Below are positions 23,644 to 43,209 of a stretch of DNA of 64,000 bases, piece by piece (positions within the stretch are counted from its first letter, which is position 1; each line of letters opens with the position of its first letter). Both the position numbers and the translations under genes were made by a program. The stretch is taken from NCBI RefSeq assembly GCF_002269345.1, contig NZ_CP022889.1, positions 2,638,852-2,702,851 on the forward strand, read 5' to 3'. This stretch comes from Tsuneonella mangrovi. Its GTDB lineage: Bacteria; Pseudomonadota; Alphaproteobacteria; Sphingomonadales; Sphingomonadaceae. The notes under the pieces were generated by a model that was not told the DNA's origin, did not search any database, and was given only the letters and a program-made list of their open reading frames with translations.

Positions 23644-23650
23644 GGATGTG

Positions 23651-24676
23651 ATGGGGCGGGGCCGGGTAACTTCGATCGACGTTGCGGAAGCGGCAGGCGT
23701 CAGCCAGTCGACCGTCAGCCGTGCGCTTGCCGGTTCGCCCGCGATCACGCCCGAGACACGGATGCGGGTGGAGCAGGCCGCGCGCGACCTAGGTTATCAC
23801 ATCGATGCGCGTGCGGCACGATTGCGTAGCGGGCGGACGGGTACGCTGGCGATCGTGGTCGTCGGGCGCAGCGGCTACGACCCGACGCGGGTGAGCGCCT
23901 TCCACTACGCGCTTCTCGGCAGCACCTGCGCTGCCGCCGCCGATCGCGGGTACCAGTCGCTGGTTTCGTTCCAGTCCGAAGACGAGCACTATTCGTGGAA
24001 TTTCGTCGCCAGCGGTCAGGCCGACGGGCTGGTGGTGATGGGCACGAGCGTCAACCGCGCCGCGTGGGCCGACCTCGAAGAGGCAGGGCCGCAGGGCCCG
24101 TGCGTGTTCTGGGGGGCACCGTTTGACGACGGGCGCTGGGTACGTGCGGAAAATCGCGCCGGCGCGCGGATCGCGGTCGAGCGGTTGCTGGCGGCTGGCT
24201 ATCGGCGGATCGCATTCGTCGGCACGGTCGATGCGATCCACCCGCAGTTCGCCGAACGGTACGCAGGCTATCGCGATGCGCTGGTGGCGGCAGGCTTGGA
24301 ACCGGCCGAGCCGTATCGCGCTGACGGTGACGACCGGGTCGAAGCGGGTCGCAGGGCGGCGGCGGATTTGCTGGCGCAGCGCGATCGACCCGACGGCATC
24401 TTCGCCGCGAACGACGCGCTTGCACTTGGCGTGCTCGAGCAGCTCGGGCGTGACGGAATCATCGTGCCGGACGATGTCGGAGTCGTCGGGTTCGACGGGC
24501 TCGCCGCTGGCGAGCACGCGCATCCCCCGCTCACCACGATCGAGCCGGACTTCGCCGAAGCGGGCAGGGTGCTGGTCGCCCATGTTTGCGGCGATGAAGA
24601 CGAATTGCCCGAAGTGCCGCGCCGGGTGCCGGTGCGGCTGGTCGAGCGCGGCAGCGTACGCCCGGCGAAACGCTAG
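23651..24676 (+). CDS. LacI-family transcriptional regulator
   Basis: 341 residues from ATG 23651 with GAGG five bases upstream. The N-terminal helix-turn-helix VTSIDVAEAAGVSQSTVSRA is the LacI signature, with the ARLRSGRTG hinge after it. The periplasmic-binding-like effector domain runs from about 60 to the end. It starts 7 bp after the DUF885 gene but converges on the halogenase/GH operon and shares its CTAG stop with halogenase B. It may regulate that sugar locus. The effector cannot be read from the sequence. Confidence 0.88.
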   Translation: MGRGRVTSIDVAEAAGVSQSTVSRALAGSPAITPETRMRVEQAARDLGYHIDARAARLRSGRTGTLAIVVVGRSGYDPTRVSAFHYALLGSTCAAAADRGYQSLVSFQSEDEHYSWNFVASGQADGLVVMGTSVNRAAWADLEEAGPQGPCVFWGAPFDDGRWVRAENRAGARIAVERLLAAGYRRIAFVGTVDAIHPQFAERYAGYRDALVAAGLEPAEPYRADGDDRVEAGRRAAADLLAQRDRPDGIFAANDALALGVLEQLGRDGIIVPDDVGVVGFDGLAAGEHAHPPLTTIEPDFAEAGRVLVAHVCGDEDELPEVPRRVPVRLVERGSVRPAKR

Positions 24677-26163
24677 CCGAGCGGGTCGTAGTCCGGGAAA
24701 TTCGTCGCGCACGCTTCGAGCAGCGCGGTAACACCCGCCGGATCGCCATCGGGCACGCCTTCGGGTAGCGGCTGGAACTTCTCGGGCGGCGGAAACGTCC
24801 CGTATCCGGCAAGAAGTGCGTGCCAGCTCATCGCGGGATAGGCCGGCTGCTCTCCATAGGCCTGATAGTTGGCCTGCCCGATATCGCCTTGCGTGAACCA
24901 CGCCGTCATCATCGCCTTGAGGCCGTCGGACAGGTTCTGGTTGACGGCGTTCTCGCGCCAGTAGGGCGTGTCGGTCCGCTGGTTCATCCGGTAATGCGCG
25001 ACGATGTAATCGCGTATTCCGTCATAGCGGGCGGCGGTGCGTTCGTTGAATGCGTCGCGGTGCTGCGCGGTGAACCCGCCGCTTTCGTATGCGTGAATGA
25101 ATTCGAACGCGGTAAACACCACGATATGCAGCGCGGTCGCTTCGAGCGGCTCGATAAACCCTTGGCTGAGCCCGGTGGCGAGGCAATTGCGTGTCCAGCT
25201 GTGCTCGACCCGGCCCACACGCATCTTGAGCACCCGTGCTTCGGCTTCGCTGCCACACGCGGCACGCAGCTCGACCTCGGCCTCGTCGTCGGAAATGTGC
25301 GCTGAGGAATAGACGTATCCATTGCCCACCCGTGTCGTCAGCGGGATCTTCCAGCGCCACCCAGCGCGCATCGCGATGCTTTCGGTCTGCGGAGTAACCG
25401 GGCCATCGTGCGCGGTCGGCATCACCACCGCACGATCGTTGAACAGGTTTTCGGCAAACGGGATGAACCGTGAGCCAAGTGCCTTTTGTGCCAACACCCC
25501 GGCAAAGCCCGAGCAATCGACGAACAGGTCCCCTTCGATCCGTTTGCCGCCCTCGCACACCAGCGCTGCGACGTCGCCATTATCCGCCAGCTCGACGTGC
25601 TCGACCTTGTGCTCGAGGTGCGTGACGCCTTGCGGCACCACCCACTCGCACAGGAATCCGCCGAGCTTGTGGGCATCGAAATGATAGCCATAGCTCGGCG
25701 CGAACGGGAAGTTCGATGCCGGATGCGGCACTTTCCGATCTTCCGCCAGCTTTGCGGCAAGGAACCAGTCGTCGGGCCGGGTCGGCACGTCGAACCCGCG
25801 CCGTGCAAGCGCGCAGGCGTGGGTGAAGCCGGGTTCGGTATGCAGGTCGACCGGGCCGGGGAAAGGGTGGAAATAGCTCTCGAATCCGGGCCGTTCGCTC
25901 CACCCGGTGAAGCGGATGCCGAGCTTGTATGTCGCATCGCAGGCCGCCATCCACTCGCTTTCGGCAATCCCGAGATGGTCGAACATCGCCTTGAGCTGCG
26001 GGGTGGAGCCTTCGCCCACACCGATGATTCCGATCTGCGGGCTCTCAACCAGGGTGACGCTGCCGCCTTTCGGCCCCCAGGCCTGGTGGATAAGGCAAGC
26101 AGTGATCCACCCCGCGCTTCCGCCGCCAAGGATGACGACCCGGGGCGGGGTGGGTTCGCTCAT
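24673..26163 (-). CDS. Tryptophan-halogenase-family flavoprotein B
   Basis: 496 residues. FAD fold: VVILGGGSAGWITA at about 9-22. The halogenase signature GWRWKIPL is present. Lys80 (TYKLGIRF) matches the lysine that carries hypohalite in PrnA (Lys79). The segment matching the PrnA ESTG halide site reads EATA (in IEPLEATALH, about residue 340). It is cytoplasmic with no signal. In Caulobacter- and sphingomonad-like bacteria such genes sit with TonB receptors and glycan enzymes, and their true substrate is unclear. It overlaps the GH97 stop by 4 bp and is the last gene of the operon. Confidence 0.88.
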   Translation of the reverse strand: MSEPTPPRVVILGGGSAGWITACLIHQAWGPKGGSVTLVESPQIGIIGVGEGSTPQLKAMFDHLGIAESEWMAACDATYKLGIRFTGWSERPGFESYFHPFPGPVDLHTEPGFTHACALARRGFDVPTRPDDWFLAAKLAEDRKVPHPASNFPFAPSYGYHFDAHKLGGFLCEWVVPQGVTHLEHKVEHVELADNGDVAALVCEGGKRIEGDLFVDCSGFAGVLAQKALGSRFIPFAENLFNDRAVVMPTAHDGPVTPQTESIAMRAGWRWKIPLTTRVGNGYVYSSAHISDDEAEVELRAACGSEAEARVLKMRVGRVEHSWTRNCLATGLSQGFIEPLEATALHIVVFTAFEFIHAYESGGFTAQHRDAFNERTAARYDGIRDYIVAHYRMNQRTDTPYWRENAVNQNLSDGLKAMMTAWFTQGDIGQANYQAYGEQPAYPAMSWHALLAGYGTFPPPEKFQPLPEGVPDGDPAGVTALLEACATNFPDYDPLG

Positions 26164-28211
26164 TTCTTCGCCGGGACGATCGCCACTGCGTAGCCACCGG
26201 CGGCTGCCATCGGGATCGCCAGCGTGTCGCCCTCCTTCACTGTCCGGGTTTCGATGGCGATGCGGTGCTTGGCATCCTGGCTCCCCAGTCCGTCAGCGCC
26301 ATCGCCGTCGCGCCAGATCTTCGCAGTATAGGTGCGACCGGGATCGAGGAAATCGAGGCTGACGGCAGGGGCGCGGGGCGTCGAATCGGTCACGCCGCCG
26401 ATATACCACGCATCGGAATTTCGGTCCTTGCGGGCGATCACCGCGTATTCGCCGATCTTGCCGTCGAGCAGCAGGCTTTGCGACCAGTCGACCGGGACTT
26501 GCTCGATGAACGCCAGCTCCTTTGGATACTTGGCCAAGTTCTCGATCGTGTCGGCGGCCATCTGCAGCGGCGAATAGATCACCACGTAGTAGGCCAGTTG
26601 GCGCGCGATGGTGGAGGGGATCGGGGTATTGTCGCGCCCGACCAGCGACAGCACGCCCGGGGTGTAATCCATCGGCCCGGAAAGCAGCCGGGTGAACACC
26701 AGCGTCGGCACGTGGCTCGGCGGGTTCTTGGGCACGCCCCACGCGTCGTATTCCGCTCCGCGCGCACCTTCGCGGGCAACGAGGTTGGGGTAGGTGCGGC
26801 GGAGGCCGGTGTCCTTGATCGGCTCGTGCGCATCGATCGAGACGTGGTACTTCGCTGCATCGAGCGCGACAGCGATATGGTGCTGGGCCGAACGCTGGCC
26901 ATCGTGCCATTCGAACACCTCACCCTTGCATGGATCGTGGATGTCCGCGTTGCAGCTGATCAGCCCGCCGGCATCGGCGACATAGCCGGTCTTGACCGCT
27001 TCGATGCCGAGCTTCTGGTCCATCGCGAACGAAGCATCCATCTGCGCTTCGAAATTGGCGATGTTGCCGCCGGTCTCGTCATGCCCGATGATGTGGACGC
27101 CTTTCTTGCGGGCATAATCGGTCACTGCCTTGAGGTCGTAGTCGGGATAAGCCTCGGTAAAGCTGAATTCGCGGCCGTTGCCGAACCAGACGCCGTCCCA
27201 ACCCTTGTTCCAGCCTTCGACCAGCACGCCGCGGAAGCCGTGCTTGGCGGCGAAATCGATATATTCCTTGGTGTGTTCGGTCGTCGCGCCGTGGTTCGGC
27301 CCGCTGTTCCAGGTCCAGTGGTTGAGGTGCATGTCCCACCAGATGCCGATGAACTTTTGAGGGTGGACCCAGCTCACATCGCCGAGCTTGTTGGGTTCAT
27401 TGAGGTTCAATTCGATGTTGCTCTCGAACAGGCCCCTCGGGCTGTCGGCGATAAGTACGGTACGCCACGGGGTGTGGAACGCCCCGGTGCGCACGACCTT
27501 CGCGCCGCGCGACGAGGGTGCCAGCTCGGTGCGGAAGCGCAGCCCGTCGACCCGCCACAGCCGGTAGCCCGAATAGTCGACCAGCGCGGCTTCGTGGAAC
27601 GACAGGTAAGTTCCGTCGGCCAGCTTCATCGTCACCGGCGTATGCACCTGGCTGAGCGCACTGATCGGGGTCTTCGAATAGATGTATTCGTAACGGTTCC
27701 AGTCGCCGCCGGGAATCGACCACGCGGTGCCGTCTTCGGCAAGATTGAACTCGGTCAGTTCCTGCGCAATCCGGGTGACCGGCTTGTTGGCGCGGCCGGG
27801 GAATTCGAGGCGAAACCCGATCCCGTCGTCGAACGCGCGCACGCGCATGGTGAAGCGGCGGTGGTCTGCATCGCCTTGCTCGAATGTAACCGCGAGTTCG
27901 TTGTGGTTGTCGGCGATCCACTGCCGCTCGCCCCACGGCTGCTCCCAGCGAGTGTCGGCGCTATCGGTCGTCTCGCCGACCACCTTGAACCCGCGGCGCA
28001 TCGGATTCTCGTCGGTGAAATCGAAGCCCAACTGCGATTTCAGCAGCACGTGCTTCCCGTCATGATCGACGGTGTAATACGGCACGCCTTCGCCATCGAC
28101 ATCGACCGTCACGACGATCTTGCCATCGGGCGAAGTCACACTCGCGGCATGGGCGACCGAAACGAACAGGAACGAGGCGAGGAACGCCGCGATAAGGCGG
28201 GCAATGGTCAT
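26160..28211 (-). CDS. GH97 alpha-glucosidase (SusB-like), periplasmic
   Basis: 683 residues with a signal peptide (MTIARLIAAFLASFLFVSVA, then HAAS). The N-terminal beta sandwich is followed by a TIM barrel. Conserved stretches are FIGIWWDMHL, GVLVEGWNKGWDG, GHDETGGNIANFE and SIDAHEPIKDTGLRRTYPN, where the glutamates of GWNKG/DETGG and DAHEP are the likely calcium and catalytic residues. The DAHEPIK glutamate favours the inverting alpha-glucosidase branch. It would trim oligosaccharides to glucose in the periplasm. Stop and start overlap the neighbours by 4 bp on both sides. Confidence 0.93.
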   Translation of the reverse strand: MTIARLIAAFLASFLFVSVAHAASVTSPDGKIVVTVDVDGEGVPYYTVDHDGKHVLLKSQLGFDFTDENPMRRGFKVVGETTDSADTRWEQPWGERQWIADNHNELAVTFEQGDADHRRFTMRVRAFDDGIGFRLEFPGRANKPVTRIAQELTEFNLAEDGTAWSIPGGDWNRYEYIYSKTPISALSQVHTPVTMKLADGTYLSFHEAALVDYSGYRLWRVDGLRFRTELAPSSRGAKVVRTGAFHTPWRTVLIADSPRGLFESNIELNLNEPNKLGDVSWVHPQKFIGIWWDMHLNHWTWNSGPNHGATTEHTKEYIDFAAKHGFRGVLVEGWNKGWDGVWFGNGREFSFTEAYPDYDLKAVTDYARKKGVHIIGHDETGGNIANFEAQMDASFAMDQKLGIEAVKTGYVADAGGLISCNADIHDPCKGEVFEWHDGQRSAQHHIAVALDAAKYHVSIDAHEPIKDTGLRRTYPNLVAREGARGAEYDAWGVPKNPPSHVPTLVFTRLLSGPMDYTPGVLSLVGRDNTPIPSTIARQLAYYVVIYSPLQMAADTIENLAKYPKELAFIEQVPVDWSQSLLLDGKIGEYAVIARKDRNSDAWYIGGVTDSTPRAPAVSLDFLDPGRTYTAKIWRDGDGADGLGSQDAKHRIAIETRTVKEGDTLAIPMAAAGGYAVAIVPAKK

Positions 28212-29824
28212 GAGCGGGTCACCAGGGCGGCAAATGCGGGAAGGACGGTTGCGGTCGCGCCGTTGATCGCCGCGATAACCTCGCCGGACGCATCCGCGTC
28301 CGCGATGTCGAGCGACTGGTCGCCGAAGTTGGCCAGCACCCGGACGGTTTCGCCAACCGCCTGGCGCTCGAGGACCAGCAGCTCGCCGTCAGCGCGACAC
28401 TGGCTCACCGATCCATGATGCAGGGCGGGGTAGGCATTGCGCAGTGCGAGCATCGCGCGGGTATGCGCCAGCAGCGAAGCCGGATCGGCGTCCTGCACGT
28501 CGACCGCGCGCCCGGCGTTTTCGGCCCCGACGGGCAGCCATGGGCTGGTCGAGCCGAATCCGGCGTCCGGCGCATCGGCGATCCATGGCATCGGCGTTCG
28601 CGCGCCGTCACGGCTCAACGTCAGCGGCCAGTTGGCGATCGCTTCGGGATCGTGCAACTGCTCGAACGGGATATCGACCTGCGTCAGGCCGAGCTCTTCG
28701 CCCTGGTAGATGATCGCGTTGCCGCGCAGCACCATCAGCAGAAGCGCCTTGAGCCGCGCGAACGGCTCGCGCTGCGCGGGCGAGCACCAACGGCTGAGGG
28801 CGCGTGGTGCGTCGTGGTTCTCGAACGCCCAGCTCGGCCAGCCGATGCCCGGTTCGTCGGGCCATTCGGCCAGCGCCGCGCAGACGAGTTGCGAACTCAG
28901 GCGATCGGCATAGAGGAAGTTGAACCCGTAGGCCGAATTGAGGTGCGTTTCACCAGCGGTGAACGCCTTCATTTCCGCTTCGGCTTCCTGCCCGCCGACT
29001 TCTGCAACCGTGAACACCGCACCGAACTCGTCGGTCAGCGCCCGGATCCGCTCGATGAAGCCGGGAATGCCGGGATGCGATTGGTTGTATTTCTTGAGCT
29101 GGAAATCGAACGGCCGACTGCGCGGCCGATCGCTTGGCGGGGCGGGAGGATTGTCGGTCAGCGCGGGGTCGTGCATCGCGAAGTTGAGTGCGTCGATGCG
29201 GAACCCGTCGACTCCCTTCTCGAGCCAGAACCGCATCACCCCCAGCACGGCGTCCTGCACCGCCGCATTGTGCATGTTGAGTTGCGGTTGGGCGGCGAGG
29301 AAGTTGTGCAGGTAATACTGTCCGCGTCGGGCATCCCACGTCCACGCAGGACCCCCGAACACGGACTGCCAGTTCGACGGCGGCGACCCGTCGGGCTTGG
29401 CATCCGCCCAGACATACCACTCATTCTTGGGACCGGTTCTGTCTGCGCGGCTGGCGGCAAACCACGGATGTTCGTCCGAGGTGTGCGAATAAACTTGGTC
29501 AATCAGCACCTTGAGCCCAAGCTCGTGGGCCCGGGCAATCAAAGCATCGAAGTCCGAAAGGGTTCCGAAAATCGGATCGACATCGCAGTAATCGGCCACG
29601 TCGTAGCCGAAGTCCTTCATCGGACTGGTAAAGAACGGGCTGATCCAGATCGCATCGACCCCGAGCTTTGAGACATAGTCGAGCCGGCTGGTGATTCCGG
29701 GAAGGTCGCCGATCCCGTCGCCGTTCGCGTCCATGAAGCTGCGCGGGTAGATCTGGTAGATCGACGCGCCTTTCCACCACGGCAATGCTGCGCCGGCCTG
29801 ATCGCCAGAGGCAAGGCTTTCCAT
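28208..29824 (-). CDS. GH13 alpha-glucosidase, cytoplasmic type
   Basis: 538 residues from MESLASGDQAGAALPWW; the longer frame upstream overlaps the previous gene. GH13 motifs are DQVYSHTSDEHPW, the nucleophile in GVDGFRIDALNF, the acid/base in FTVAEVGG, and FENHDAPR. The layout matches oligo-1,6-/alpha-glucosidases of subfamily 23. There is no signal peptide, so it probably acts on imported maltose or isomaltose. It follows the secreted GH13 by 5 bp and overlaps GH97 by 4 bp. Confidence 0.92.
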   Translation of the reverse strand: MESLASGDQAGAALPWWKGASIYQIYPRSFMDANGDGIGDLPGITSRLDYVSKLGVDAIWISPFFTSPMKDFGYDVADYCDVDPIFGTLSDFDALIARAHELGLKVLIDQVYSHTSDEHPWFAASRADRTGPKNEWYVWADAKPDGSPPSNWQSVFGGPAWTWDARRGQYYLHNFLAAQPQLNMHNAAVQDAVLGVMRFWLEKGVDGFRIDALNFAMHDPALTDNPPAPPSDRPRSRPFDFQLKKYNQSHPGIPGFIERIRALTDEFGAVFTVAEVGGQEAEAEMKAFTAGETHLNSAYGFNFLYADRLSSQLVCAALAEWPDEPGIGWPSWAFENHDAPRALSRWCSPAQREPFARLKALLLMVLRGNAIIYQGEELGLTQVDIPFEQLHDPEAIANWPLTLSRDGARTPMPWIADAPDAGFGSTSPWLPVGAENAGRAVDVQDADPASLLAHTRAMLALRNAYPALHHGSVSQCRADGELLVLERQAVGETVRVLANFGDQSLDIADADASGEVIAAINGATATVLPAFAALVTRS

Positions 29825-29829
29825 GCGGT

Positions 29830-31710
29830 TCACTCGGTGGTCTCGCTGACCTGGCAGACCGCCCAGCCGAACGCAGGCAGGTCGAACTTCGCGCTGCCCG
29901 GCGCGGATACTTTCGCGGGACACGTGCCCGAGAGAGTATTGAACGTACGCGCGTCGTAGCCGACCACGACGTTCGCGCTGCGCGGTTTGCCAGTCGTATT
30001 GAACGCCAGCACGATTTCGTTCCCGGTCTCGGGATCGAACCGGCTCGCAGCGAAAACGCCGGGGGTCTGTTCGTAGTGGCGGACTTTCTGCAGCCCGAGA
30101 GTCAGCGCGGGGTGTGCACGCCGGAGAGCCGAAAGCTGGGCGATCAGGCGGTAGAGCGGATGGCTTTCGTCGAAGTTGGCGTTGGCTGTTGTAGCATCGG
30201 TGCCGATCAGATTTTCGCTGTTGTAGACAGCCGTTTTCGACGGGAACATGTCCTCGCGCGCCAACTGGTCGCCACCTCCGCCGACAAAGCCTTGCTCGTC
30301 GCCGTAATAGATCACCGGCGCGCCGCGAAGCGTCAGCAGCATAGCGTGCCCCAGCATCACGCGCTTGAGCAGCTCGTCTTGCGAGATGTCGGGCATGTCA
30401 TGCTTGATGAGCGTGGAGAACCGACCCATGTCGTGATTGCCGAGGAACGTGGGCAGGTTGAGCGCCGCTTTCTCGCCGCCCTGGTAGAGCACGTCGCCGT
30501 CGAACATGTGCGCCAGCACCACTGTACCCTGGTTGCGGCCAAGGATGTCGCGCATCGCCGCCTGGAACGCAAAATCGAGCACGGCGGGTAATTTGTCGCG
30601 GCGAGTGTACTGCGCGATGTAGCCGTTATCGGGCACGTCCTTGTAGACCTCGCCGAACATCGTGAAGTTGGGGATGCCGTGCTTGTGCGCGTCGGCCATG
30701 ATCGCGGGCACGAACACCTGCCAGAAGCCGGGATCGACGTGCCGCGCGGTGTCGATACGGAACCCGTCTATCCCGTAATCGTCGATCCACTTTGAGTAGA
30801 TGTCGATCATCCCCTGGCGGACGAACGGGTTCTCGGTGAACAGGTCGTCAAGCCCGGAAAAATCTCCGAACCGGCTGTCTTCGCCGGTGAACGTGCTGTT
30901 GCCGCGGTTGTGGTAGTAGATCGGATTGTTGAGCCAGGCAGGGACCTTGATGTTCTTCTCGTCCGCCGGGACGTACGGCTTGTAAGCCCAGTCGGGATTG
31001 GTCAGGTGCGCGAAGTTCTCGGGCGTCGAGATCGTGTCGCCCATGAAGCCGGGATTGATCGGCTTTCCATCCAATCCGCCTTCCCGCGAATAGGGGAAGT
31101 CGCCGCGGCTGCGATACTTGTAGTCGTTGGCGTCGCCGTCCCGGTAGCGGATTACGTCGGCGGTGTGGTTGGTGATGATGTCCATGTAGACCTTCATCCC
31201 GCGCGCGTGAGCCGCATCGACGAACGCCTTGAAATCAGCCTTGGTGCCGAAGTGGCTGTCGGGCCGGGTGAAGTCGGTCACCCAGTATCCGTGATAGCCG
31301 GCACTTTCGTCACCCGGATTGCCCTGGACCACCTTGTTCTGGAAGATCGGCGCGAACCAGATCGCGGTGATGCCCATATCCTGAAGGTAGGGCAGCTTTT
31401 CGGTCAGCCCCTTCAGGTCGCCGCCGTGGAAGAAACCCTTGCTGGTCGGGTCGTAGCCGGTCTTGAGCCGGCCGCCGGAGAGGCCTCCGCGGTCGTTCGA
31501 AGGATCGCCGTCTTCGAAACGGTCGGGCAACACGAAATAGATCACTTCCTGCGAGGGAACGCGCGCGCGCAGGTCGGCCAGCACCTGCTTCGCATCGTCG
31601 TCGGCGGTGATGCCCGATGCCGGCCCCGATTGCGCGGCGGCGCAGCCGGGCAGGGCGGCAATGGCAAGCGCGAGGGTTGGCAAGGCGCAGGCAGCGAAAC
31701 GGCGGATCAT
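29830..31710 (-). CDS. GH13 alpha-amylase-family enzyme, probable lipoprotein
   Basis: 626 residues. The N-terminus has a signal with LALAIAALPGC; LPGC could be a lipobox, placing it on the outer membrane or periplasmic face. Catalytic parts are YGIDGFRIDTARH (nucleophile), MFGEVYKD (acid/base) and FLGNHDMGRF. Substrate loops include YHGYWVTDF and ITNHTADVI. A C-terminal beta domain ends the protein. It should cut alpha-glucans or cyclodextrin-like sugars outside the inner membrane. Its start overlaps the halogenase A stop by 4 bp. Confidence 0.9.
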   Translation of the reverse strand: MIRRFAACALPTLALAIAALPGCAAAQSGPASGITADDDAKQVLADLRARVPSQEVIYFVLPDRFEDGDPSNDRGGLSGGRLKTGYDPTSKGFFHGGDLKGLTEKLPYLQDMGITAIWFAPIFQNKVVQGNPGDESAGYHGYWVTDFTRPDSHFGTKADFKAFVDAAHARGMKVYMDIITNHTADVIRYRDGDANDYKYRSRGDFPYSREGGLDGKPINPGFMGDTISTPENFAHLTNPDWAYKPYVPADEKNIKVPAWLNNPIYYHNRGNSTFTGEDSRFGDFSGLDDLFTENPFVRQGMIDIYSKWIDDYGIDGFRIDTARHVDPGFWQVFVPAIMADAHKHGIPNFTMFGEVYKDVPDNGYIAQYTRRDKLPAVLDFAFQAAMRDILGRNQGTVVLAHMFDGDVLYQGGEKAALNLPTFLGNHDMGRFSTLIKHDMPDISQDELLKRVMLGHAMLLTLRGAPVIYYGDEQGFVGGGGDQLAREDMFPSKTAVYNSENLIGTDATTANANFDESHPLYRLIAQLSALRRAHPALTLGLQKVRHYEQTPGVFAASRFDPETGNEIVLAFNTTGKPRSANVVVGYDARTFNTLSGTCPAKVSAPGSAKFDLPAFGWAVCQVSETTE

Positions 31711-33221
31711 TGGGTCACTTCTCCGGCACAGCCGAGCATCTGGTTGATGAAGTCGCGATGCGTCGGGATCGCCTGGGCGCGTGTCTTGGTGGATTTGGCA
31801 AGGCTCGCCAGGAACGGCCCGATGTCTTCCCCCGGAACGTTGTCGGCAAGCGGCGAATAGTTGCGCGGCTCAAGGCCCTGTCCGATCATCACCTGTCCCC
31901 AGCTGTCGTCGAGGAACAGCTCATCCTCTTCGCGAACCAGCAATCCGGACTCTGCGAACAGCGCCATTTTCTCGGCAAGTGTCTCGGGGATTTCGATTGC
32001 GCGGCAGTGATCCCAGAACGGCTCGCCTTCACGTGCGTTGGCGACGTAGTGCAGGATCAGGAAATCGCGGATGCGCGCCCATTCACCGTTGGACAGGCGG
32101 TTGAACATCGCCCGTGCTGTGGAGAGGTCTGTCAGGTCGTTGGGCAACAGCTTGAGCAGTCGGTCGAGCGCTGACTGCACCAGGTGAATCGAGGTCGACT
32201 CGAGCGGCTCCATGAACCCGGCGGCGAGCCCCAGCGCAACGCAGTTATGCGACCAGAATTCCCGGCGATGGCCGGTGGTAAAGCGGATCGGGCGCGGATC
32301 GGCAAGAGCCTCGCCCTCGAGATTGGCGAGCAACAGGGTCGACGCTTCGTCGACCGACATGAATTGCGAGCAGAACACGTGGCCGTTACCGGTGCGGTGC
32401 TGCAACGGGATGCGCCATTGCCAACCAGCCGGGCGGGCAAGCGATTGGGTGTAGGGCCGGAACTGCCCGCCGCCGTCGCTCGGAACAGCCACCGCGGTGT
32501 CGCACGGCAGCCAGTGGGTCCAGTCCTCGAACGGAACGCCCAGCGTATCGCCGAGCAAAAGGCTGCGGAACCCGGTGCAATCGATGAACAGCTGTCCGGC
32601 GACGTGGCGATCGCCGTTAAGTTTGAGCGCATTGATATTCCCGCTAGCGGGATCGCGCTCGACCTGTTCGATCATGCCTTCGACGCGGACCACGCCGCGT
32701 TCCTCGGCATAGCCGCGGAGGAGCTTCGCCAACAATGTGGCGTCAAAGTGATAGGCATAAGCCAGTTCGGGCTGGTTCGGCCCATTGGCGCCCTTGGCGA
32801 ACCGTCCGGCACGGGCCGCGGCAACGTTGTAGCTGTATTCGCCATAGTCCCCCGCGACGCCGAGAGAACGCCCCCTCAACCACAACTGACGGAACGGGAT
32901 AAGCCCGACCCCGCGCCCGACATAACCGAAGCTGTGAATGTAGCTCTCGCCAGGTTTCAACCAACCGGCGAACTCAATCCCCAGCTTGAAGCTGGCGTTG
33001 GTCGCCCGCATGAATTCGGCCTGGTCGATCCCTAGCCCGATTATCAGGTTGTGGATCTGCGGGATCGTGGCTTCGCCTACGCCGACCGTGCCAATCGCAT
33101 CGGATTCGACAAGCGTGATCGAAGCCGCCTCGCCGACAAACCTGGAGAGCACGGCAGCAGCCATCCATCCGGCGGTACCACCGCCGGCGACGACTATCTC
33201 AAGAGGAGCGGGCCTGTTCAT
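31707..33221 (-). CDS. Tryptophan-halogenase-family flavoprotein A
   Basis: 504 residues. FAD site VVAGGGTAGWMAA at about 10-22; Lys79 in ASFKLGIEF is the hypohalite-carrying lysine position; signature GWQWRIPL. The halide-site segment reads ESTS (MEPLESTSIH, about residue 340), one residue away from the PrnA ESTG. It lies directly after the TonB receptor and before the amylase. It is clearly homologous to, but different from, halogenase B of the same operon, so the two are not recent copies. No flavin reductase partner is encoded nearby. Confidence 0.88.
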   Translation of the reverse strand: MNRPAPLEIVVAGGGTAGWMAAAVLSRFVGEAASITLVESDAIGTVGVGEATIPQIHNLIIGLGIDQAEFMRATNASFKLGIEFAGWLKPGESYIHSFGYVGRGVGLIPFRQLWLRGRSLGVAGDYGEYSYNVAAARAGRFAKGANGPNQPELAYAYHFDATLLAKLLRGYAEERGVVRVEGMIEQVERDPASGNINALKLNGDRHVAGQLFIDCTGFRSLLLGDTLGVPFEDWTHWLPCDTAVAVPSDGGGQFRPYTQSLARPAGWQWRIPLQHRTGNGHVFCSQFMSVDEASTLLLANLEGEALADPRPIRFTTGHRREFWSHNCVALGLAAGFMEPLESTSIHLVQSALDRLLKLLPNDLTDLSTARAMFNRLSNGEWARIRDFLILHYVANAREGEPFWDHCRAIEIPETLAEKMALFAESGLLVREEDELFLDDSWGQVMIGQGLEPRNYSPLADNVPGEDIGPFLASLAKSTKTRAQAIPTHRDFINQMLGCAGEVTQ

Positions 33222-33243
33222 GACGCAAGTTCAGTGAACCGGT

Positions 33244-33272
33244 GCACCCGACCGGTCAAACCGATCGGGTGC
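33244..33272 (-). terminator. Hairpin between TonB receptor and halogenase A
   Basis: GCACCCGA at 33244-33251 pairs with TCGGGTGC at 33265-33272, with a short inner CGGT/ACCG-like pairing and a CAAA loop. It sits in the 63-bp gap after the receptor stop. There is no T run, so it more likely attenuates or protects the receptor mRNA end than stops transcription fully. Confidence 0.5.
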
Positions 33273-33284
33273 CTCGCCTCATTC

Positions 33285-35999
33285 CTAGAACTTGTAGGTG
33301 AAGCCTGCGACGACGCGGCGACCGTAGGTCTGGTACTTCAACCAAGCGCCCGGGACCTGTTCCCCTCCGACCTGGGCCAGTGTGGCCGAACGCTGGTCGG
33401 TGAGGTTCTGACCCTGGATGTAGAGCGACAGGCCGTGCAGCGTCGAGCTGTCCGGGAAGTCGTAGCCGATCTGAGCATCGTAGACCGTTTCGGGCAGCAC
33501 GTACTGGCGATCGAGACCACCGCTAAACAGCGCGAAGTCGCCGAGGAAGCCGCTGCGATAGCGCATCGAGCCACGCAGGTTGAACCCGCCCTTCTCGTAG
33601 TACGCGGTAAGGCTGCCGACCCACTTGGAGTAACCGGGGATCGCAGTCCTGTTGCCGAGGTAATCGGTCGCCTTCGTTTCAGTGTAGCCTGCACCACCCG
33701 TCAGGCCGAACCCGGAAAGCGCCGGAGTGATCAGCTCGAACGGCAGGGTGCCGGCCACTTCAAGACCCATCAGGTATCCGCCCTTGGTGTTAACCGGGCC
33801 GCTGAACTGGCCGATTGGCGAGGTCGGCACGATACCGGGAGGAGTCGGGTAGGGCGAATAGTCGTAGGCAAAGTCGAAGCCCGACGGATCGATGTACGTC
33901 GTCAGTGTCTTGTAGAACGCCTGGACAGCCAGGTAGCCCTTGTTTCCAAAGTACTTTTCGACATTCATGTCGAATGCCCACGCTTGGTACGGACGAAGCA
34001 ACGGGTTGCCGCCACCACCGACGTAGATCGGGGGGTTGCGCGTCTGGTCGACGCCGAACCCGACAATGTTGTTCATCTGATTGAGGCGCGGACGCATCAT
34101 TTCCTTCGAAACGGCGAAGCGTAGAACCAAGTCGTCCGCGCTGCGGAACGCCACGTTCATGCTCGGCAGGATCATCCAGTAGTTGTCCTTGACGGTCGGA
34201 TTGACTGCCCCGGCCGACGAAGTCGAAGTATGGATCGCCTGGACGCCGAAGTTGCCGGTCACCGAGTTGCCGTTGCCCAGATCGCTGTCGATCTTGGCCA
34301 TCACATAAGGCGTCCACACGTCTTCGGTGACGTCATACGCCTGCGATGCGCCGTACGGGTTCGGCAGGTAGTCCAGCACCCCTTGCGCCACGAGGACGCG
34401 CGGGTCGTAAGCCAGTATCTGTCCGAGGCCGCGATCGAGCGTGACAGGCGCCAGGATCAGGTTGCTGGGGATTGCCGCGGTGTCTGCGCCGTTGGGCGGC
34501 GAGAGGAACGCTTCGTCCTGAGTCAGCGACTTCTGGCGGTAGGTATGGTCGACGCCGATCTTGACCGACTTCACGAACGCGAAATCGATGTCATGCTCGA
34601 GCTCGGCGCGCAGTTCCTTGAGGTCGTCCTTGCTCTTGCGGATCTTGTCGTAGCCGGCCTGAACCGGCGATCCGGACCACCCTTCGACATCGGTCAGCAC
34701 CAGCGCCGAGCTGGCACCGTCGTAAGTCGAAGTGAATTCCGGACCATGATCGGTCATCTGGTAGGTCAGCGTGCCCGTGGGGTTGGCCAGGTTGCGGCCA
34801 AGGCCAGCGGTCGTTTCGAGACGGTCGTCGTGACGATCGGTACGCGACCAGCTGAGGTCGATCATAGCGCGGGTGCCGCTGTCGTTGTCCCACTTGAGGT
34901 TACCGGCAAAAGAATACTGATCAGCCACGCGGTCGTTGGCGTAGTTTTCGATCACAGGCTTGCCGGTCACGGTAGCCGAATCGACGAGCTCAGCAGTGTA
35001 GCCCGGGATCGGACCAGCCGTGTAAGCGGTAACAGTCGAACCGCCCGCGCCGTAGAGGATCGGCATTTCGAAGCCGCGCTGGTCGATCCGGTCGACGAAG
35101 TGCGAGTAGAATCCATCGAGGGTGACCTCGATCGTGTCCGAGGGCTTGTACTGGATGGTTCCATTGACGCCCAGTCTCTTGAGCTTGTCGGATTCGAACC
35201 AGGTTTTGATGCCGCTCATGCCGTACTGGTTGGGGCCATACTGGTCGTAGCCCCAGGCGTTCCAGTCGCGGGTCTGATACGGTTCGTCGGTGTAGGCCGC
35301 CGACAGCGCTACGCCCAGCGTGTCGTCGGCGAACTGGTCGACATAGGTGCCGTAAACGCGGTAGCCGGTGTCGCTGGTTCCCGGCTGGAGCTTCTGGTCG
35401 ACATAAGTGCCGCGTGCGCCGATCGCGAGGATCTTCTTGTTGGCATCGAGCGGGCGAATCGTGCGCAGGTCGATCGAACCGACGAGGCCGCCTGCGGTAC
35501 GGTCTGCTTCGGCGGTCTTGTAGACATCGACGCCGGAAAGGATTTCCGACGGATACTGGTCGAACTCGACCGCACGGCTGTCGTTGGTTGTGGTCTGCTC
35601 GCGACCGTTGAGCGTAGTGGTCGAGAAATCCGGGCCGAAGCCGCGGATCGAGATGATGTTCGCACGACCGGCCGAACGCTGGGCCGAAACGCCGGGCAAG
35701 CGGGCGATCGATTCGCCAATGCCGTTGTCGGGCAGCTTCCCGATGTCTTCGGCACTGACCGATTCAACGACCACGTCGGCGTTCTTCTTCTTGACCGTCG
35801 CGCTGCGCAGCGAGGCTGCGAACCCGGTGACGATGATGACCTGACCTGTATCGACGTCGTTCGCGTCCTGGTTCTGGCTCTGGTCCGTGGTTGCGGTCGT
35901 CGCGTCCTGCGCGGCGGCGATTGCCGGATTGACCGTCAGGCCGGCGACGATGAAGGCGGTTGCACTGATCCCGCCAGCAAGCTTGCTGCGAATTGCCAT
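33285..35999 (-). CDS. TonB-dependent outer-membrane receptor (Caulobacter/oligosaccharide type)
   Basis: 904 residues from MAIRSKLAGGISATAF with a signal peptide ending near AIAAAQ. The TonB box lies in TGQVIIVTGFAASLR. The plug has VSAEDIGKLPDNGIGESIARLPGV and IISIRGFGPDFSTTTLNGRE, written here as two separate stretches. The barrel runs to the end and closes with VVAGFTYKF, a terminal phenylalanine typical of outer-membrane proteins. It heads the halogenase/amylase operon, so maltodextrin or a related alpha-glucan is the likely ligand. It is divergent from a LacI gene. Confidence 0.93.
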   Translation of the reverse strand: MAIRSKLAGGISATAFIVAGLTVNPAIAAAQDATTATTDQSQNQDANDVDTGQVIIVTGFAASLRSATVKKKNADVVVESVSAEDIGKLPDNGIGESIARLPGVSAQRSAGRANIISIRGFGPDFSTTTLNGREQTTTNDSRAVEFDQYPSEILSGVDVYKTAEADRTAGGLVGSIDLRTIRPLDANKKILAIGARGTYVDQKLQPGTSDTGYRVYGTYVDQFADDTLGVALSAAYTDEPYQTRDWNAWGYDQYGPNQYGMSGIKTWFESDKLKRLGVNGTIQYKPSDTIEVTLDGFYSHFVDRIDQRGFEMPILYGAGGSTVTAYTAGPIPGYTAELVDSATVTGKPVIENYANDRVADQYSFAGNLKWDNDSGTRAMIDLSWSRTDRHDDRLETTAGLGRNLANPTGTLTYQMTDHGPEFTSTYDGASSALVLTDVEGWSGSPVQAGYDKIRKSKDDLKELRAELEHDIDFAFVKSVKIGVDHTYRQKSLTQDEAFLSPPNGADTAAIPSNLILAPVTLDRGLGQILAYDPRVLVAQGVLDYLPNPYGASQAYDVTEDVWTPYVMAKIDSDLGNGNSVTGNFGVQAIHTSTSSAGAVNPTVKDNYWMILPSMNVAFRSADDLVLRFAVSKEMMRPRLNQMNNIVGFGVDQTRNPPIYVGGGGNPLLRPYQAWAFDMNVEKYFGNKGYLAVQAFYKTLTTYIDPSGFDFAYDYSPYPTPPGIVPTSPIGQFSGPVNTKGGYLMGLEVAGTLPFELITPALSGFGLTGGAGYTETKATDYLGNRTAIPGYSKWVGSLTAYYEKGGFNLRGSMRYRSGFLGDFALFSGGLDRQYVLPETVYDAQIGYDFPDSSTLHGLSLYIQGQNLTDQRSATLAQVGGEQVPGAWLKYQTYGRRVVAGFTYKF

Positions 36000-36141
36000 G
36001 GTAGTCCCTCTGTTTGCGCCGGGCCGGGGACTTTCCATGTCCCGCTTTCCGGCAGATCCTCATCCTCAGGCAGCTTCCGGACTTTGGCCGGGTCTGCCAT
36101 GCACACACTACGAATAGGGAGGTCGGCGGGCGGGAAGATAG

Positions 36142-36163: not shown

Positions 36164-36180
36164 ATGCGCGCGCGGGCGAT

Positions 36181-36210: not shown

Positions 36211-36331
36211 TGCTGGAACTACCCGTCGCAGCATGCCTGCCCGGTTTGTCACCTTGTTCGCCAGGGTTTAGAGACGGGCGTGCGAGATGGCGCGCTTGAC
36301 GCGGTTTGCGCCGTCAGCCTGGAGAGAAAAC

Positions 36332-37369
36332 ATGGGGCGGGCGCCAACGGGAAGGCCGACGAGCTTCGACATCGCCTATCTGGCGGGGGTCTCGCAGCCG
36401 ACTGTCAGCCGGGCGCTGCGTGGCGACCGGGCGGTGAGCCAAGCTACCCGCGAAAAGATCGAGAAAATCGCGCGCGAGCTCAATTACACCGTCGACAAGA
36501 ACGCCAGCTCGCTGCGCTCGCAGCGCTCGAACACGATCGCGCTGCTGTTCTTCGAAGACCCCACGCCCGACGAAAGCATGATCAACCCGTTCTTCCTGGC
36601 GATGCTGGGATCGATCACTCGGGCCTGCGCCAATCGCGGGCTGGATCTGCTGATCTCGTTCCAGCGGATGGAGGATGACTGGCACGTCCAATACCAGGAC
36701 AGCCACCGCGCCGACGGGCTGATCCTGCTCGGATATGGCGACTACACGCTCTACGAGGAACGGCTCGACCAGTTGCACCGCCAGGGAACCCACTTCGCGC
36801 GCTGGGGCTCGGTCTCAAGCGACGACACCGGGGTGACGATCGGTTCGGACAACCACGGTGCCGGGAGAACGGCGGGCGAGCACCTGATCGAACGCGGTCG
36901 CAAGCGGATCGCGTTCCTTGGTCATTCCGACGAACACTACCCGGAATTCGCCGCCCGCTATCAGGGATTATGCGATGCGCTCCGGGCGGCTGGGATCGAG
37001 CCCGACCCCAAACTGTGCCGCGATGCGATCACTACCGAAGCCGCAGGCTATGCCGCCGCGAAGGATTTGATCGGCTCGGGCGCGCAGTTCGACGCGATCT
37101 TTGCCGCGAGCGACCTGATTGCTATCGGCGCGATGCGCGCGCTGGGCGAGGCAGGGCGCTCGATCCCGGGCGACGTAGCGGTGGTCGGGTTCGACGACAT
37201 CCCCGCCGCCAGTTTGACCCGTCCGCCACTCACCACGGTGATGCAGGACGTCAGGGGTGCCGGTGAGCGCCTGGTCGAGACGCTGCTGGCGCAGATCGAG
37301 GAGCGCGACGGACCCGATACGCGATTGCCGACCCGGCTGGTTGTGCGCGACAGTTCGGGCAGCGCCTGA
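36332..37369 (+). CDS. LacI-family regulator of the alpha-glucan locus
   Basis: 345 residues from ATG 36332, preceded by GGAG. The helix-turn-helix FDIAYLAGVSQPTVSRALRG is followed by the hinge ASSLRSQRSN and a sugar-binding-protein-like effector domain with NHGAGRTAGEHLIERG and VVGFDDIPAASL. It is divergent from the TonB receptor and directly upstream of the MFS and GH13 genes, so it is the best candidate to bind the CG-centred palindromes at 36142, 37373 and possibly 4242. The inducer is probably maltose, maltodextrin or glucose. Confidence 0.9.
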   Translation: MGRAPTGRPTSFDIAYLAGVSQPTVSRALRGDRAVSQATREKIEKIARELNYTVDKNASSLRSQRSNTIALLFFEDPTPDESMINPFFLAMLGSITRACANRGLDLLISFQRMEDDWHVQYQDSHRADGLILLGYGDYTLYEERLDQLHRQGTHFARWGSVSSDDTGVTIGSDNHGAGRTAGEHLIERGRKRIAFLGHSDEHYPEFAARYQGLCDALRAAGIEPDPKLCRDAITTEAAGYAAAKDLIGSGAQFDAIFAASDLIAIGAMRALGEAGRSIPGDVAVVGFDDIPAASLTRPPLTTVMQDVRGAGERLVETLLAQIEERDGPDTRLPTRLVVRDSSGSA

Positions 37370-37372
37370 CCC

Positions 37373-37390
37373 GCTACATTCGTATGCGGC
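37373..37390 (+). promoter_or_regulatory. LacI-type operator candidate upstream of MFS gene
   Basis: GCTACATTCGTATGCGGC matches the pckA palindrome at 12 of 18 positions, including the continuous run CATTCGTATGC. It starts 4 bp after the LacI stop and about 90 bp before the MFS start. Confidence 0.5.
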
Positions 37391-37478
37391 TTGTGACCGG
37401 CCCGCTTTGCTGCCAGCCATAGGCAACGAAGAGCGGCGCAAGTCCGTTCAAGTCAACGGGGTGAGAGGAATTCGCGCG

Positions 37479-38996
37479 ATGGAAAAACCGCGCCAGGGCT
37501 TTTGGGGCCTGTGGAACATCAGCTTCGGCTTCTTCGGGATCCAGATCGGGTTCGCGTTGCAGAATGCCAATATGAGTCGGGTCTTCCAGACGCTCGGCGC
37601 GAGCATGGACAGCCTGCCCGCGCTATGGGTCGCTGCACCGCTGACCGGGCTGATCGTGCAACCGATTATCGGCCATATGAGCGACCGGACCTGGACACGG
37701 CTGGGTCGTCGCCGCCCGTATTTCCTGACCGGCGCATTGTTCGCCGCATTCGCGTTGTTCGTGATGCCGCTGGCCCCGCATATCGGCTTACCGCTGGTGT
37801 TTGCCGCGACGATGCTGTGGGTTCTCGATGCCAGCCTCAACATCTCGATGGAGCCTTTTCGTGCATTCGTCGGCGATATGCTGCGTACCGACCAGCACAG
37901 CGCTGGATATGCCGTGCAAACCGCCTTTATCGGCGCGGGCGCGGTGGTCGGATCGATCTTCCCCTGGCTGCTCGAACATCTTGGGGTTGCCAACGTCGCG
38001 TCGGGCGGGGGCCTTCCGGATACCGTGAAGTGGAGTTTCTGGGCGGGCAGCGGTGCGTTGCTATTCGCGGTGCTGTGGACCGTCGTAACCACGAAGGAAT
38101 ACAGCCCGGAAGAGCAGGCAGCGTTTGCCGAGGCTGCGCCTGAAGAGGCGATCGAACAGCCTGTCCGCGCGCTGGCGGCCAAGAGCTATCTGTCGAGTGC
38201 GATGTGGATCGTGCTGGGCGTGATCGTGGCCGGGCTGGTCGATGAACTCGGGTTGCAGAAGGAAGTGTACCTGCTCGGCGGATTGCTCGCGCTCTACGGC
38301 GTACTCAGCGCCATCGCCATCTGGCTTGCGCGGCAGGGCCGCACCAGCGGGATGCTGGCGAGCATCGTCGGCGATTTTTCCGGGATGCCACCGGTGATGA
38401 AGCGGCTTGCGCTGGTCCAGTTTTTCAGCTGGAGCGCGCTGTTCATCATGTGGATCAACACCACTCCGGTAGTGACACAATACGTCTTCGGATCGAGCGA
38501 CACGACCAGCGTTGCCTATAACGACGGGGCGAGTTGGGTGAACGTGCTGTTCACAGTCTACAACGGCGTGGCGGCAGTCGCTGCGCTTGCACTGCTGCCG
38601 TGGCTCAGCCGCAAGTTCGGGCAGGTCACCACGCACTCGATCAGCCTGTCGCTGGGCGCACTAGGCTTTGCAATGTTCTTCTTCGTGCGCAACGCCGATG
38701 TGTTGCTGATCGCCGAGGTCGGCATCGGTATCGCCTGGGCGAGCATCCTCGCGATGCCCTATGCGATCCTGGCCAGCAACCTGCCGCAGGCGAAGCTCGG
38801 CATCTACATGGGCCTGTTCAATATCTTCATCGTGATACCGCAGCTGCTCGTCGCGACGGTGATGGGATCGGTCATGCAGGCTTTCTTCCCCGGCCAGCCG
38901 GTGTGGACGATGCTGTTTGCCGCCGCCAGCTGGCTGATCGCAGCCGTCGCGATGCAGCGAGTTGCAGCCGCGATTCCCGCTCCCTCGAAAGGATAG
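37479..38996 (+). CDS. MFS sugar transporter, SLC45/GPH-like
   Basis: 505 residues with about 12 membrane helices, starting [36 protein letters not shown] is the conserved loop of sucrose/maltose-type (SLC45 and GPH) carriers, and the first half has [15 protein letters not shown] lies nine bases before the ATG. It probably brings maltose or similar oligosaccharides across the inner membrane with protons. A GH13 enzyme gene follows after 4 bp. A LacI-type operator candidate precedes it. Confidence 0.9.
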
Positions 38997-39000
38997 ACCA

Positions 39001-40425
39001 ATGCGCCGCTACGCTGCCGTGATGGGCGCACTCGCGCTTGCCTCCGCCACCGCGGCATGGGCGATGACCAATAAACCTGCCGAACCGGCAGCGGACAGCG
39101 ATTATGCTACCGTCTGGCAGCCCGATCCCTACGTCACGATCAAGCACCCGGACTGGGCGAAGGAAGCGGTGCTCTACCAGATCAACACCCGCCAGTTCAC
39201 GCCCGAGGGCACGTTCCGCGCCGCTGAAGCGCAGCTGCCCCGGCTCAAGGCGCTGGGCGTCAACGTGCTGTGGCTGATGCCGATCAACCCCATCGGGATA
39301 AAGAACCGCAAGGGCACGCTCGGCAGCCCCTATTCGGTGCGCGACTACTACAGCGTCAATCCGGAATTCGGGACCAAGGAAGACTTCAAGCACTTCGTCG
39401 ATGCAGCGCACGCGCAGGGCTTCCACGTGATCCTCGACTGGGTGGCCAACCACACCGCGTGGGATAACCCGATGGCGAGCCAGCATCCCGACTGGTACGA
39501 AAAGGACTGGAAGGGCGATTTCCGGCCGACCCCGTGGCTCGACTGGTCTGACATCATCGACCTCGACTGGTCTAAGCCGGGCGTTCGCGAACACGTGGGC
39601 AAGGCGATGGAAATGTGGGTCCGCGACTACGGAGTCGACGGGTTCCGCGCCGACGTGGCTGGATACGTGCCGATCGACTTCTGGAACAAGGAGCGCGCGC
39701 GGCTCGATGCGATCAAGCCGGTTTTCATGCTCGCCGAGTGGAAGACTCCAGAGATGACTCGCGCGGCGTTCGACGCGGTCTATGCCTGGGAATGGCACCA
39801 CACGATGGTCGATATCGCGCACGGGCGCGCCGATCCCACCGCGCTCTATGGCTACTATGCCGAGGCCGACAGCGCGTGGCCGCGCGAGGCGATGCGCATG
39901 ACCTACATCGCCAACCACGATTCCAACGCGTGGGAAGGCACCCAATACGAGAACTTCGGTGACGCGCTGCCTGCTGCGATTGCGTTCTCGTTCACCGGCG
40001 AAGGCCTGCCAATGATCTACAACGGGCAGGAGGCGTGCAACCACAAGCGGCTGGAGTTCTTCGAGAAAGATCCGATCGACTGGAGTCAGGGCAAGGGTTG
40101 CCAGCTTGGCAGCCTTTTCCACGACCTGATCGCGTTCCGCAAAGCCAACTCGGCGCTTGCCAACAACCCGTGGGGCGGCGAGATGGACAAGCTCGACAAC
40201 GACCATCCGCACCAACTGTTTTCGTGGGTGCGCGAAAGGGACGGCAACAAGGTCATCGGGCTGTTCAATTTCTCGTCCAAGCCGGTCGAAGCGGCGCTGA
40301 CCGATGCCCACGGTGCGGGGCACTACCGCGCATTTCGCACCGGGCAAGAGGTGACGATCGCCAGCGGTTACAAGGTCTTGTTGCCGGCGTGGGGTTACAC
40401 GATACTCGCCGGTCGTGGCGATTGA
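39001..40425 (+). CDS. GH13 alpha-amylase-family enzyme, exported
   Basis: 474 residues from MRRYAAVMGALALASATAAW, a likely signal peptide. Catalytic pieces are the nucleophile in GVDGFRADVAG, the acid/base in FMLAEWKTPE, and IANHDSNAW. DWVANHTAWDN gives the usual early barrel motif. The C-terminal beta domain begins near 400. The short length and lack of extra domains suggest an enzyme acting on small maltodextrins. It is co-transcribed with the transporter (4 bp apart) and complements the two GH13 enzymes on the other strand. Confidence 0.9.
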   Translation: MRRYAAVMGALALASATAAWAMTNKPAEPAADSDYATVWQPDPYVTIKHPDWAKEAVLYQINTRQFTPEGTFRAAEAQLPRLKALGVNVLWLMPINPIGIKNRKGTLGSPYSVRDYYSVNPEFGTKEDFKHFVDAAHAQGFHVILDWVANHTAWDNPMASQHPDWYEKDWKGDFRPTPWLDWSDIIDLDWSKPGVREHVGKAMEMWVRDYGVDGFRADVAGYVPIDFWNKERARLDAIKPVFMLAEWKTPEMTRAAFDAVYAWEWHHTMVDIAHGRADPTALYGYYAEADSAWPREAMRMTYIANHDSNAWEGTQYENFGDALPAAIAFSFTGEGLPMIYNGQEACNHKRLEFFEKDPIDWSQGKGCQLGSLFHDLIAFRKANSALANNPWGGEMDKLDNDHPHQLFSWVRERDGNKVIGLFNFSSKPVEAALTDAHGAGHYRAFRTGQEVTIASGYKVLLPAWGYTILAGRGD

Positions 40426-43205: not shown

Positions 43206-43209
43206 GGTG

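Follow-up and report, generated by a model that had tools for sequence, protein, structure and literature searches.

Why does an operon for the use of starch-derived sugars carry two unlike flavin-dependent halogenases? The question arises from a stretch of 64,000 nucleotides of Tsuneonella mangrovi (contig NZ_CP022889.1, positions 2,638,852 to 2,702,851; hereafter, the window), which forms the end of a 2.70-Mb single-contig genome. On its minus strand, an operon at 24673-36038 encodes, in this order, a TonB-dependent receptor, halogenase A (HalA), two glycoside hydrolases of family GH13 (GH13a and GH13b), a GH97 enzyme, and halogenase B (HalB), an order that had been given in a preliminary description made from the sequence alone and that is confirmed by the coordinates and profile matches. 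That description presented the two halogenases as one puzzle. Adjacency, distance correlations, and gene trees take them apart: HalA belongs with the receptor module, and HalB with the catabolic module.

Two halogenases, two modules

The enzymes are, as described, unlike homologues of halogenases that use flavin adenine dinucleotide (FAD): HalA (31707..33221, minus strand) and HalB, of a second type (24673..26163, minus strand), match PF04820 over its full length with 588.5 and 432.9 bits, respectively (cut-off 21 bits), and are 34% identical to each other. The GxGxxG, K-L-G lysine, WxWxIP, and EPLE motifs are present in both, and the catalytic lysine and glutamate are invariant in 54 of 54 HalA and 33 of 33 HalB sequences (one locus counted twice); having kept the motifs of working halogenases, both are predicted to halogenate. 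HalA resembles the BrvH/Xcc4156 type. The nearest solved relatives are 9luq (495 bits, a likeness known from the sequence match alone), Xcc4156 of Xanthomonas campestris (6y1w, 483 bits), and BrvH of Brevundimonas BAL3 (6frl, 413 bits), with which HalA aligns over nearly the full length and without gaps across the short loop that BrvH has instead of the loop of free-tryptophan halogenases of the RebH and PrnA type. These features are found in HalA only; the loop region of HalB is six residues longer, and HalB scores higher against tryptophan halogenases, 5hy5 among them (292 bits), than against 6frl (272 bits).

The partners of each enzyme become apparent when the locus is compared among relatives. 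GH13a, a query by which loci are sampled regardless of halogenases, was sought in 149 genomes of the family and has homologues in 55, among them the genome of the window. Together with the window and eight named loci, this gave 62 usable alpha-glucan loci (61 without one duplicate). The eight named loci, the nearest of which by HalA similarity belong to Sphingomonadales such as Tsuneonella litorea, favor HalA presence because they came from a HalA search; 14 of the 22 loci from that search were set aside for having no receptor-HalA-GH13a order (L024, L025, and L033 among the loci do have other GH13 genes), as was the 4.4-kb locus L115 from all locus counts. The receptor is present in 60 of the 62 loci, HalA in 54 (45 of the 53 found through GH13a), and HalB in 33. 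Wherever both the receptor and HalA occur, they lie within 300 bp of each other (52/52), in 50 cases as codirectional genes with the receptor immediately preceding HalA, and they stay together even where the pair has been inverted or moved relative to the GH13 genes (L098, L101, L109, and L112). HalB, in contrast, is never within 300 bp of the receptor (0/32), and in 30 of 32 loci it lies no more than 1.2 kb from GH97; it is found in none of the 8 loci that lack HalA (Fisher p 0.0015, the loci being related). The six-gene order of the window recurs identically in L016, L017, L018, and L019, and L015 adds a single esterase gene before halB. In L107 (6188-12436), the receptor and GH13a are split over more than one frame, which looks like decay, and HalA is open.

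The association extends well beyond alpha-glucan. Across 40 genomes of the order, 81 of the 93 PF04820 matches have a match to the receptor subfamily TIGR01782 no farther than 10 kb away, against 3.6 expected at random under uniform placement and whole-genome sizes, so that the neighborhood survey by which the preliminary description proposed to probe its own claim gives no sign of random placement. Conversely, 54 of 111 TIGR01782 matches are paired with a halogenase (two split receptor matches having been joined by hand before pairing); with at most 17 candidates scored per genome, the receptor counts are lower bounds. PF04820 at E up to 1e-60 is present in 21 of the 40 genomes of the order and in 5 of 80 drawn over the phylum, the window's own among both. 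On a tree of the 54 paired and 17 of the 57 unpaired receptors, paired status clusters, with 7 changes compared to a shuffled mean of 15.4 and none of 500 shuffles as low.

In the window's own genome, PF04820 matches seven genes over their full length and one more partially and weakly. Four TIGR01782 receptors above the cut-off are also present there, each with a halogenase within about 5 kb. Its other halogenase loci include one of beta-glucan type with SapC, Cupin_8, LacI, MFS, and GH3 genes; one of galactose type with SapC and genes for DGOK, PfkB, and an aldose epimerase; one with GH42 and a GH42/GH35-like gene; and one with arabinofuranosidase, GH43, and fucosidase genes, where no TIGR01782 receptor occurs within 27 kb. 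PF04820 genes thus sit in several different sugar loci, so the link to the glycan is not specific, and a halogenase dedicated to alpha-glucan is ruled out. The proposal that the substrate is sugar-linked or receptor-delivered, rather than free tryptophan, is accordingly upheld in part: HalA keeps its association with the receptor in different genera and has no counterpart of the tryptophan-anchoring loop of RebH, whereas the specific connection to maltodextrin gives way before the loci for other sugars and the RTX loci discussed below. A second locus of this genome with two halogenases (L011:4213-17005) contains a receptor, a HalB-type gene, SapC, Cupin_8, a HalA-type gene, LacI, MFS, and GH3. 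Elsewhere in the collection, tandem arrays place a strongly diverged PF04820 copy next to or between full-scoring copies (G024:C1:346646-351047, 211 bits; G114:C1:1120284-1126109, 348 bits; G108:C1:306429-309322, 264 bits), possibly a third type.

Joint descent of the receptor and HalA

Gene identities to the window differ among the related loci. In L018 and L019, the LacI regulator, the transporter, both GH13 enzymes, GH97, and HalB are 60-80% identical to those of the window, whereas the receptor is only 37% and HalA 54-57% identical; in L016, the pattern is reversed, with the receptor at 62% and HalA at 73% compared to 53% for GH97 and 51% for HalB. Partial distance correlations, calculated for the 21 gene pairs over the 41 loci with all seven genes (here and in the trees, L026, L107, and L115, which have no near-full GH13a, and L090, a duplicate of L015, were left aside), are highest for the receptor and HalA, at 0.45 (p 0.001, with permutations that treat related loci as exchangeable), and remain at 0.37 (p 0.002) when the window's clade is removed. 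HalB correlates with GH13b (0.33) and GH97 (0.32) and not with the receptor (-0.01), and LacI, the transporter, GH13b, and GH97 form a second correlated module. Lower values above zero were also obtained for receptor-GH13a (0.19, p 0.005), receptor-transporter (0.20, p 0.03), and HalA-GH13b (0.18, p 0.03). In the order-wide set, receptor-halogenase distances correlate at 0.596 for 43 HalA-type pairs (within-genome shuffle 0.107) and at 0.695 for 16 HalB-type pairs (shuffle 0.293), values that do not discriminate because they are expected of any gene of orthologous loci.

The gene trees disagree along the same line. Tests were obtained for the receptor, HalA, LacI, the transporter, GH13b, and HalB, with p values that are optimistic because the clades were picked after seeing the identities and trees. 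The group of the window with L015, L016, and L017 holds in the receptor and HalA trees and is rejected by LacI (p 3e-6), the transporter (4e-5), GH13b (0.002), and HalB (6e-5); the group of the window with L017, L063, L067, and L068 holds for GH13b and, with weak support, for the transporter; LacI does not reject it (p 0.65), but the receptor (2e-96) and HalA (1.2e-5) do. The pairing and shared descent of the receptor and HalA thus appear well supported, and the simplest reading of the disagreement among the trees would be that the pair has been exchanged between lineages.

Physical linkage alone might, in principle, produce such a pattern, if the receptor and the halogenase merely recombine as neighbors and the enzyme makes a diffusible compound, for instance, for defense of a nutrient source. 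The two genes are indeed adjacent in every locus that has both, and the neighbors LacI and the transporter, which tight linkage could co-carry, correlate as well (0.38). Other neighbors, however, are uncorrelated (receptor-LacI, -0.13; HalA-GH13a, 0.05), the pair survives inversion and relocation relative to the glycoside hydrolase genes, and the association recurs over receptor types and sugars, so that we regard this explanation as improbable. Even less probable, in our estimate, is that HalA halogenates or otherwise targets a different exported or regulatory protein encoded here, for instance, GH97 or LacI: the neighborhood of HalB and GH97, together with the correlation of HalB with GH13b and GH97, lends this idea some appeal, but the correlations of HalA itself with GH97 (0.11, p 0.08) and LacI (0.13, p 0.10) are weak.

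What the halogenases might modify

Given that HalA follows the receptor and HalB the sugar-cutting genes, we tentatively propose, with somewhat less than even confidence, that HalA halogenates its neighboring receptor before export, rather than a sugar or free tryptophan. HalA would be a cytoplasmic flavin-dependent halogenase, a location suggested by its lack of an N-terminal signal sequence and by a chemistry that needs reduced FAD. It would modify an aromatic residue of the receptor, predicted to be tryptophan, prior to export, with bromide or chloride as the probable halide, and the modification may affect the binding or uptake of alpha-glucan. By analogy, and purely as a guess, HalB could act on one of the exported glycoside hydrolases that the operon encodes.

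Several known systems offer partial precedents for such a mechanism. BrvH brominates indole slowly and does not accept free tryptophan, a short loop replaces the tryptophan-anchoring loop (the anchors in RebH being Y454, Y455, E461, and F465), the open active site was likened by the authors to that of MibH, which chlorinates tryptophan only within its cognate peptide, the native substrate is given as unknown, and the gene, similarly to that of HalA, is accompanied by a second halogenase gene, which in the case of BrvH lies next to it and has a product that is 42.7% identical (PMC5945002). The native substrates in Xanthomonas, the source of Xcc4156, are likewise stated to be unknown (PMC7336383). 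With its presumably open active site, HalA is a candidate for working like MibH; the substrate of MibH, however, is a small lantibiotic precursor, whereas activity of HalA on a peptide or protein is a candidate function suggested by the loop. The structure 5uao is the one we take to be MibH.

Modification of a protein before it leaves the cytoplasm, and dependence of a receptor on an enzyme encoded next door, are also on record. QhpG is a flavoprotein monooxygenase that dihydroxylates protein tryptophan in the cytoplasm before translocation (PMC7876137); its fold is related to that of the window halogenases, but it is a hydroxylase, and its sequence similarity to them is weak, the QhpG model matching them at 35.6 and 22.6 bits, far under its cut-off of 240. 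This relationship gives some substance to the idea that the halogenases no longer halogenate in the cell and, instead, have a role connected with the uptake of sugar, be it as flavin oxidases, hydroxylases, or redox sensors. Throughout the sequences, nevertheless, the lysine, the glutamate, and the WxWxIP motif of working halogenases are kept, and we accord this alternative little credence. In Caulobacter, the TonB receptor CciT depends on CciO, a cytoplasmic dioxygenase whose gene is its neighbor (PMC11870441), and the receptor-HalA pair shares the adjacency and co-conservation of receptor and cytoplasmic oxygenase. The differences are that CciT serves iron uptake and that CciO is a 2-oxoglutarate/Fe(II) dioxygenase, not a flavoprotein; HalA, as a PF04820 protein, therefore may work like CciO without being a member of its family. 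The MalA locus of Caulobacter, cited in PMC1790865, offers a parallel in maltodextrin uptake driven by a TonB receptor within a sugar locus. In the text available for PMC1790865, halogenases have 0 occurrences, as do TonB, maltose, and amylase in that of PMC5945002, and among the matches listed for open-licence literature (titles and abstract openings, subscription papers being mostly outside), there was no description of a pairing between halogenases and TonB receptors or sugar loci.

The chief competitor of this receptor-modification proposal is that HalA acts on a small aromatic compound, perhaps an indole or an aromatic glycoside, which the receptor delivers; each receptor ligand would then have its own halogenase, and HalB would act on a compound released by the catabolic enzymes. 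This scheme predicts co-inheritance of HalA and the receptor equally well, and the slow bromination of free indole by BrvH (PMC5945002) accords with it. It fits less readily with the fact that the receptor and HalA differ between loci in which the glycoside hydrolases are unchanged, so that the glycan does not explain the change, with the export loci L034 and L053, where no receptor was found, and with the operon, in which no enzyme for aromatic compounds was noticed. We consider it unlikely, albeit a serious contender.

If the receptor is the target, the sites in it should be of interest. The receptor (33285..36038, minus strand; alternative start at 35999) belongs to TonB-dependent receptor subfamily TIGR01782 (499.7 bits, cut-off 310), and its model, with a predicted local distance difference test (pLDDT) score of 83.5, structurally matches TonB-dependent transporters, as expected of a receptor fold. 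Two tryptophans stand out among alpha-glucan receptors: all 49 receptors linked to HalA have W454, within the motif LTDPxGWG, and 48 of the 49 have W262, within NAWGY; judged by strand and turn lengths, both lie on the outer side of the model. Both are lost in L078, L083, and L084, which represent one lineage with genomes lacking PF04820, and neither was found in the aligned receptors of other sugar loci. They may be sugar-binding residues, targets, or both; as a modification site, they were not retained because sugar binding explains the pattern equally well.

Several observations, along with the LacI-transporter correlation, weigh against the proposal that HalA modifies the receptor or against its extension to other proteins. 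W454 and W262 are kept in L102, the genome of which has no PF04820, and in L105, L106, and L110, and so may only bind sugar. No universal tryptophan column exists in 56 alpha-glucan receptors, in 21 receptors for several sugars, or in the set of 54 paired and 17 of 57 unpaired receptors, so the best explanation needs receptor-specific sites; one column has tryptophan in 63% of the paired and 12% of the unpaired receptors, with tyrosine in the window receptor. In some genomes, the receptor does without the enzyme: more than half of the TIGR01782 matches in the order (57/111) have no PF04820 within 10 kb, and seven alpha-glucan loci have the receptor without HalA, a distribution that needs at least four changes on the receptor tree; among the eight genomes whose locus lacks HalA, three carry PF04820 copies elsewhere, and the other five show no match at E up to 1e-30. 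When CciO is missing, CciT is nevertheless produced and reaches the outer membrane, the authors leaving the target open (PMC11870441). Finally, the RTX context described next comprises two loci only, and HlyC, with matches in 9 of the 40 genomes, adjoins a halogenase, as judged by eye, in one place.

We inspected the genes around each of the 12 PF04820 matches that have no TIGR01782 receptor nearby, with Pfam searches on selected neighbors, and, in addition, the named locus L034. In L034 (6433-21465), an ABC exporter, HlyD, and a HalA-type halogenase follow in a row, the HlyD and halogenase genes overlapping by 4 bp, and DUF6445, HlyC, and a 2477-residue RTX protein are also encoded; in L053 (8484-19899, genome G098), a HalA-type halogenase lies beside HlyC, DUF6445, and a 2717-residue RTX protein. 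The receptor profile has no match in either locus. Acylation of RTX proteins by enzymes of the HlyC type takes place in the cytoplasm and precedes their export. Linkage to HlyC as a general rule was rejected, given the single HlyC place that adjoins a halogenase. In L052, a gene for a TonB-type barrel protein adjoins the halogenase, together with ABC and HlyD genes; in L054, a TonB receptor gene is two genes upstream, and in L060 one is about 5.5 kb away. HalB-type genes without a TIGR01782 receptor in L060 (6328-10518) and L061 (9149-14269) adjoin a gene for an outer-membrane barrel of the Alginate_exp family, L060 also encoding a Na+/H+ exchanger.

Other families recur around the halogenases. 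Among the eight strong matches to DUF6445 (at least 195 bits, out of 19), seven are within 10 kb of a halogenase and five of these are also near a receptor, and SapC is within 10 kb of a halogenase in 18 of 38 cases. In L065 (G098) and L066 (G094), a DUF6445 gene lies 356 and 373 bp upstream of the alpha-glucan receptor match, which links this family to receptor-halogenase loci. SapC as an oxygenase was dismissed, the model (pLDDT 53.7) being unusable and the solved relatives unconvincing (best E 0.14). It is conceivable, although on balance doubtful, that all these loci reflect a widespread Gram-negative system for the post-translational halogenation of exported surface proteins. In it, PF04820 halogenases of both types, helped by SapC, Cupin_8, and DUF6445 proteins, would mark RTX proteins and TonB sugar receptors while these are still in the cytoplasm, each halogenase being dedicated to the product of the neighboring gene.

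The locus in context

The remaining genes account for the sugar side of the locus. GH13a (29830..31710, minus strand) matches PF00128 with 225.7 bits and has an N-terminal signal-like sequence, as read by eye; GH13b (28208..29824, minus strand), with its start from the gene caller, matches the same family with 392.1 bits; and GH97 (26160..28211, minus strand), which also begins with a signal-like sequence, matches PF10566, PF14508, and PF14509 with 323.3, 227.2, and 95.1 bits. Within the operon, a gap of 63 bp separates the receptor gene from halA, three junctions are 4-bp ATGA overlaps (31707-31710, 28208-28211, and 26160-26163), and the gap between GH13a and GH13b is 5 bp if GH13b begins at the ATG at 29824. 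The preliminary description had counted four 4-bp overlaps and this 5-bp gap; the fourth overlap (24673-24676), however, is tail to tail, between halB and the convergent gene of a second LacI-family regulator (23648..24676, plus strand; PF00356 and PF13377). Likewise, of the extent originally assigned to the locus, 24673..40425, only the portion up to 36038 is the operon, whereas the remainder, between about 36287 and 40425, is a divergent group of plus-strand genes outside it. This group consists of a LacI-family regulator (36287..37369, with a start at 36287 or 36332; PF00356 and PF13377), which is divergent from the receptor gene and kept next to the operon in relatives as well; a GPH-like MFS transporter (37479..38996; PF07690, 63.4 bits, with TIGR01301 under its cut-off); and a third GH13 enzyme (39001..40425; PF00128, 112.9 bits). 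By gene content, the GH13 and GH97 enzymes, LacI, transporter, and receptor together make up an alpha-glucan (maltodextrin) utilization locus, and the operon is predicted from its sequence to take up starch-derived sugars. Overall, the original observation largely holds, and its interpretation is partly supported.

Next to this locus, type II/Tad-like secretion genes (T2SSE, T2SSF, ParA-like, and Tad) occupy 41298-53624 on the minus strand, and at 60085-63999 an open frame of at least 1305 residues with Big_9, cadherin-like, and DUF5801 domains runs off the contig end.

Halogenases of the BrvH and Xcc types have been studied as biocatalysts, with native substrates called unknown (PMC5945002, PMC7336383), and the comparative data now give one candidate target per enzyme, namely, the receptor encoded next door. 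The receptor-halogenase pairs would constitute a group of partnerships between receptors and enzymes comparable to that of CciT and CciO. If the proposed modification of the receptor is correct, bacterial outer-membrane proteins would be subject to halogenation in addition to their other modifications, and sugar uptake could be adjusted in this way. Should the target instead be a small molecule, the two halogenases still appear to pose separate questions, each with a partner of its own.

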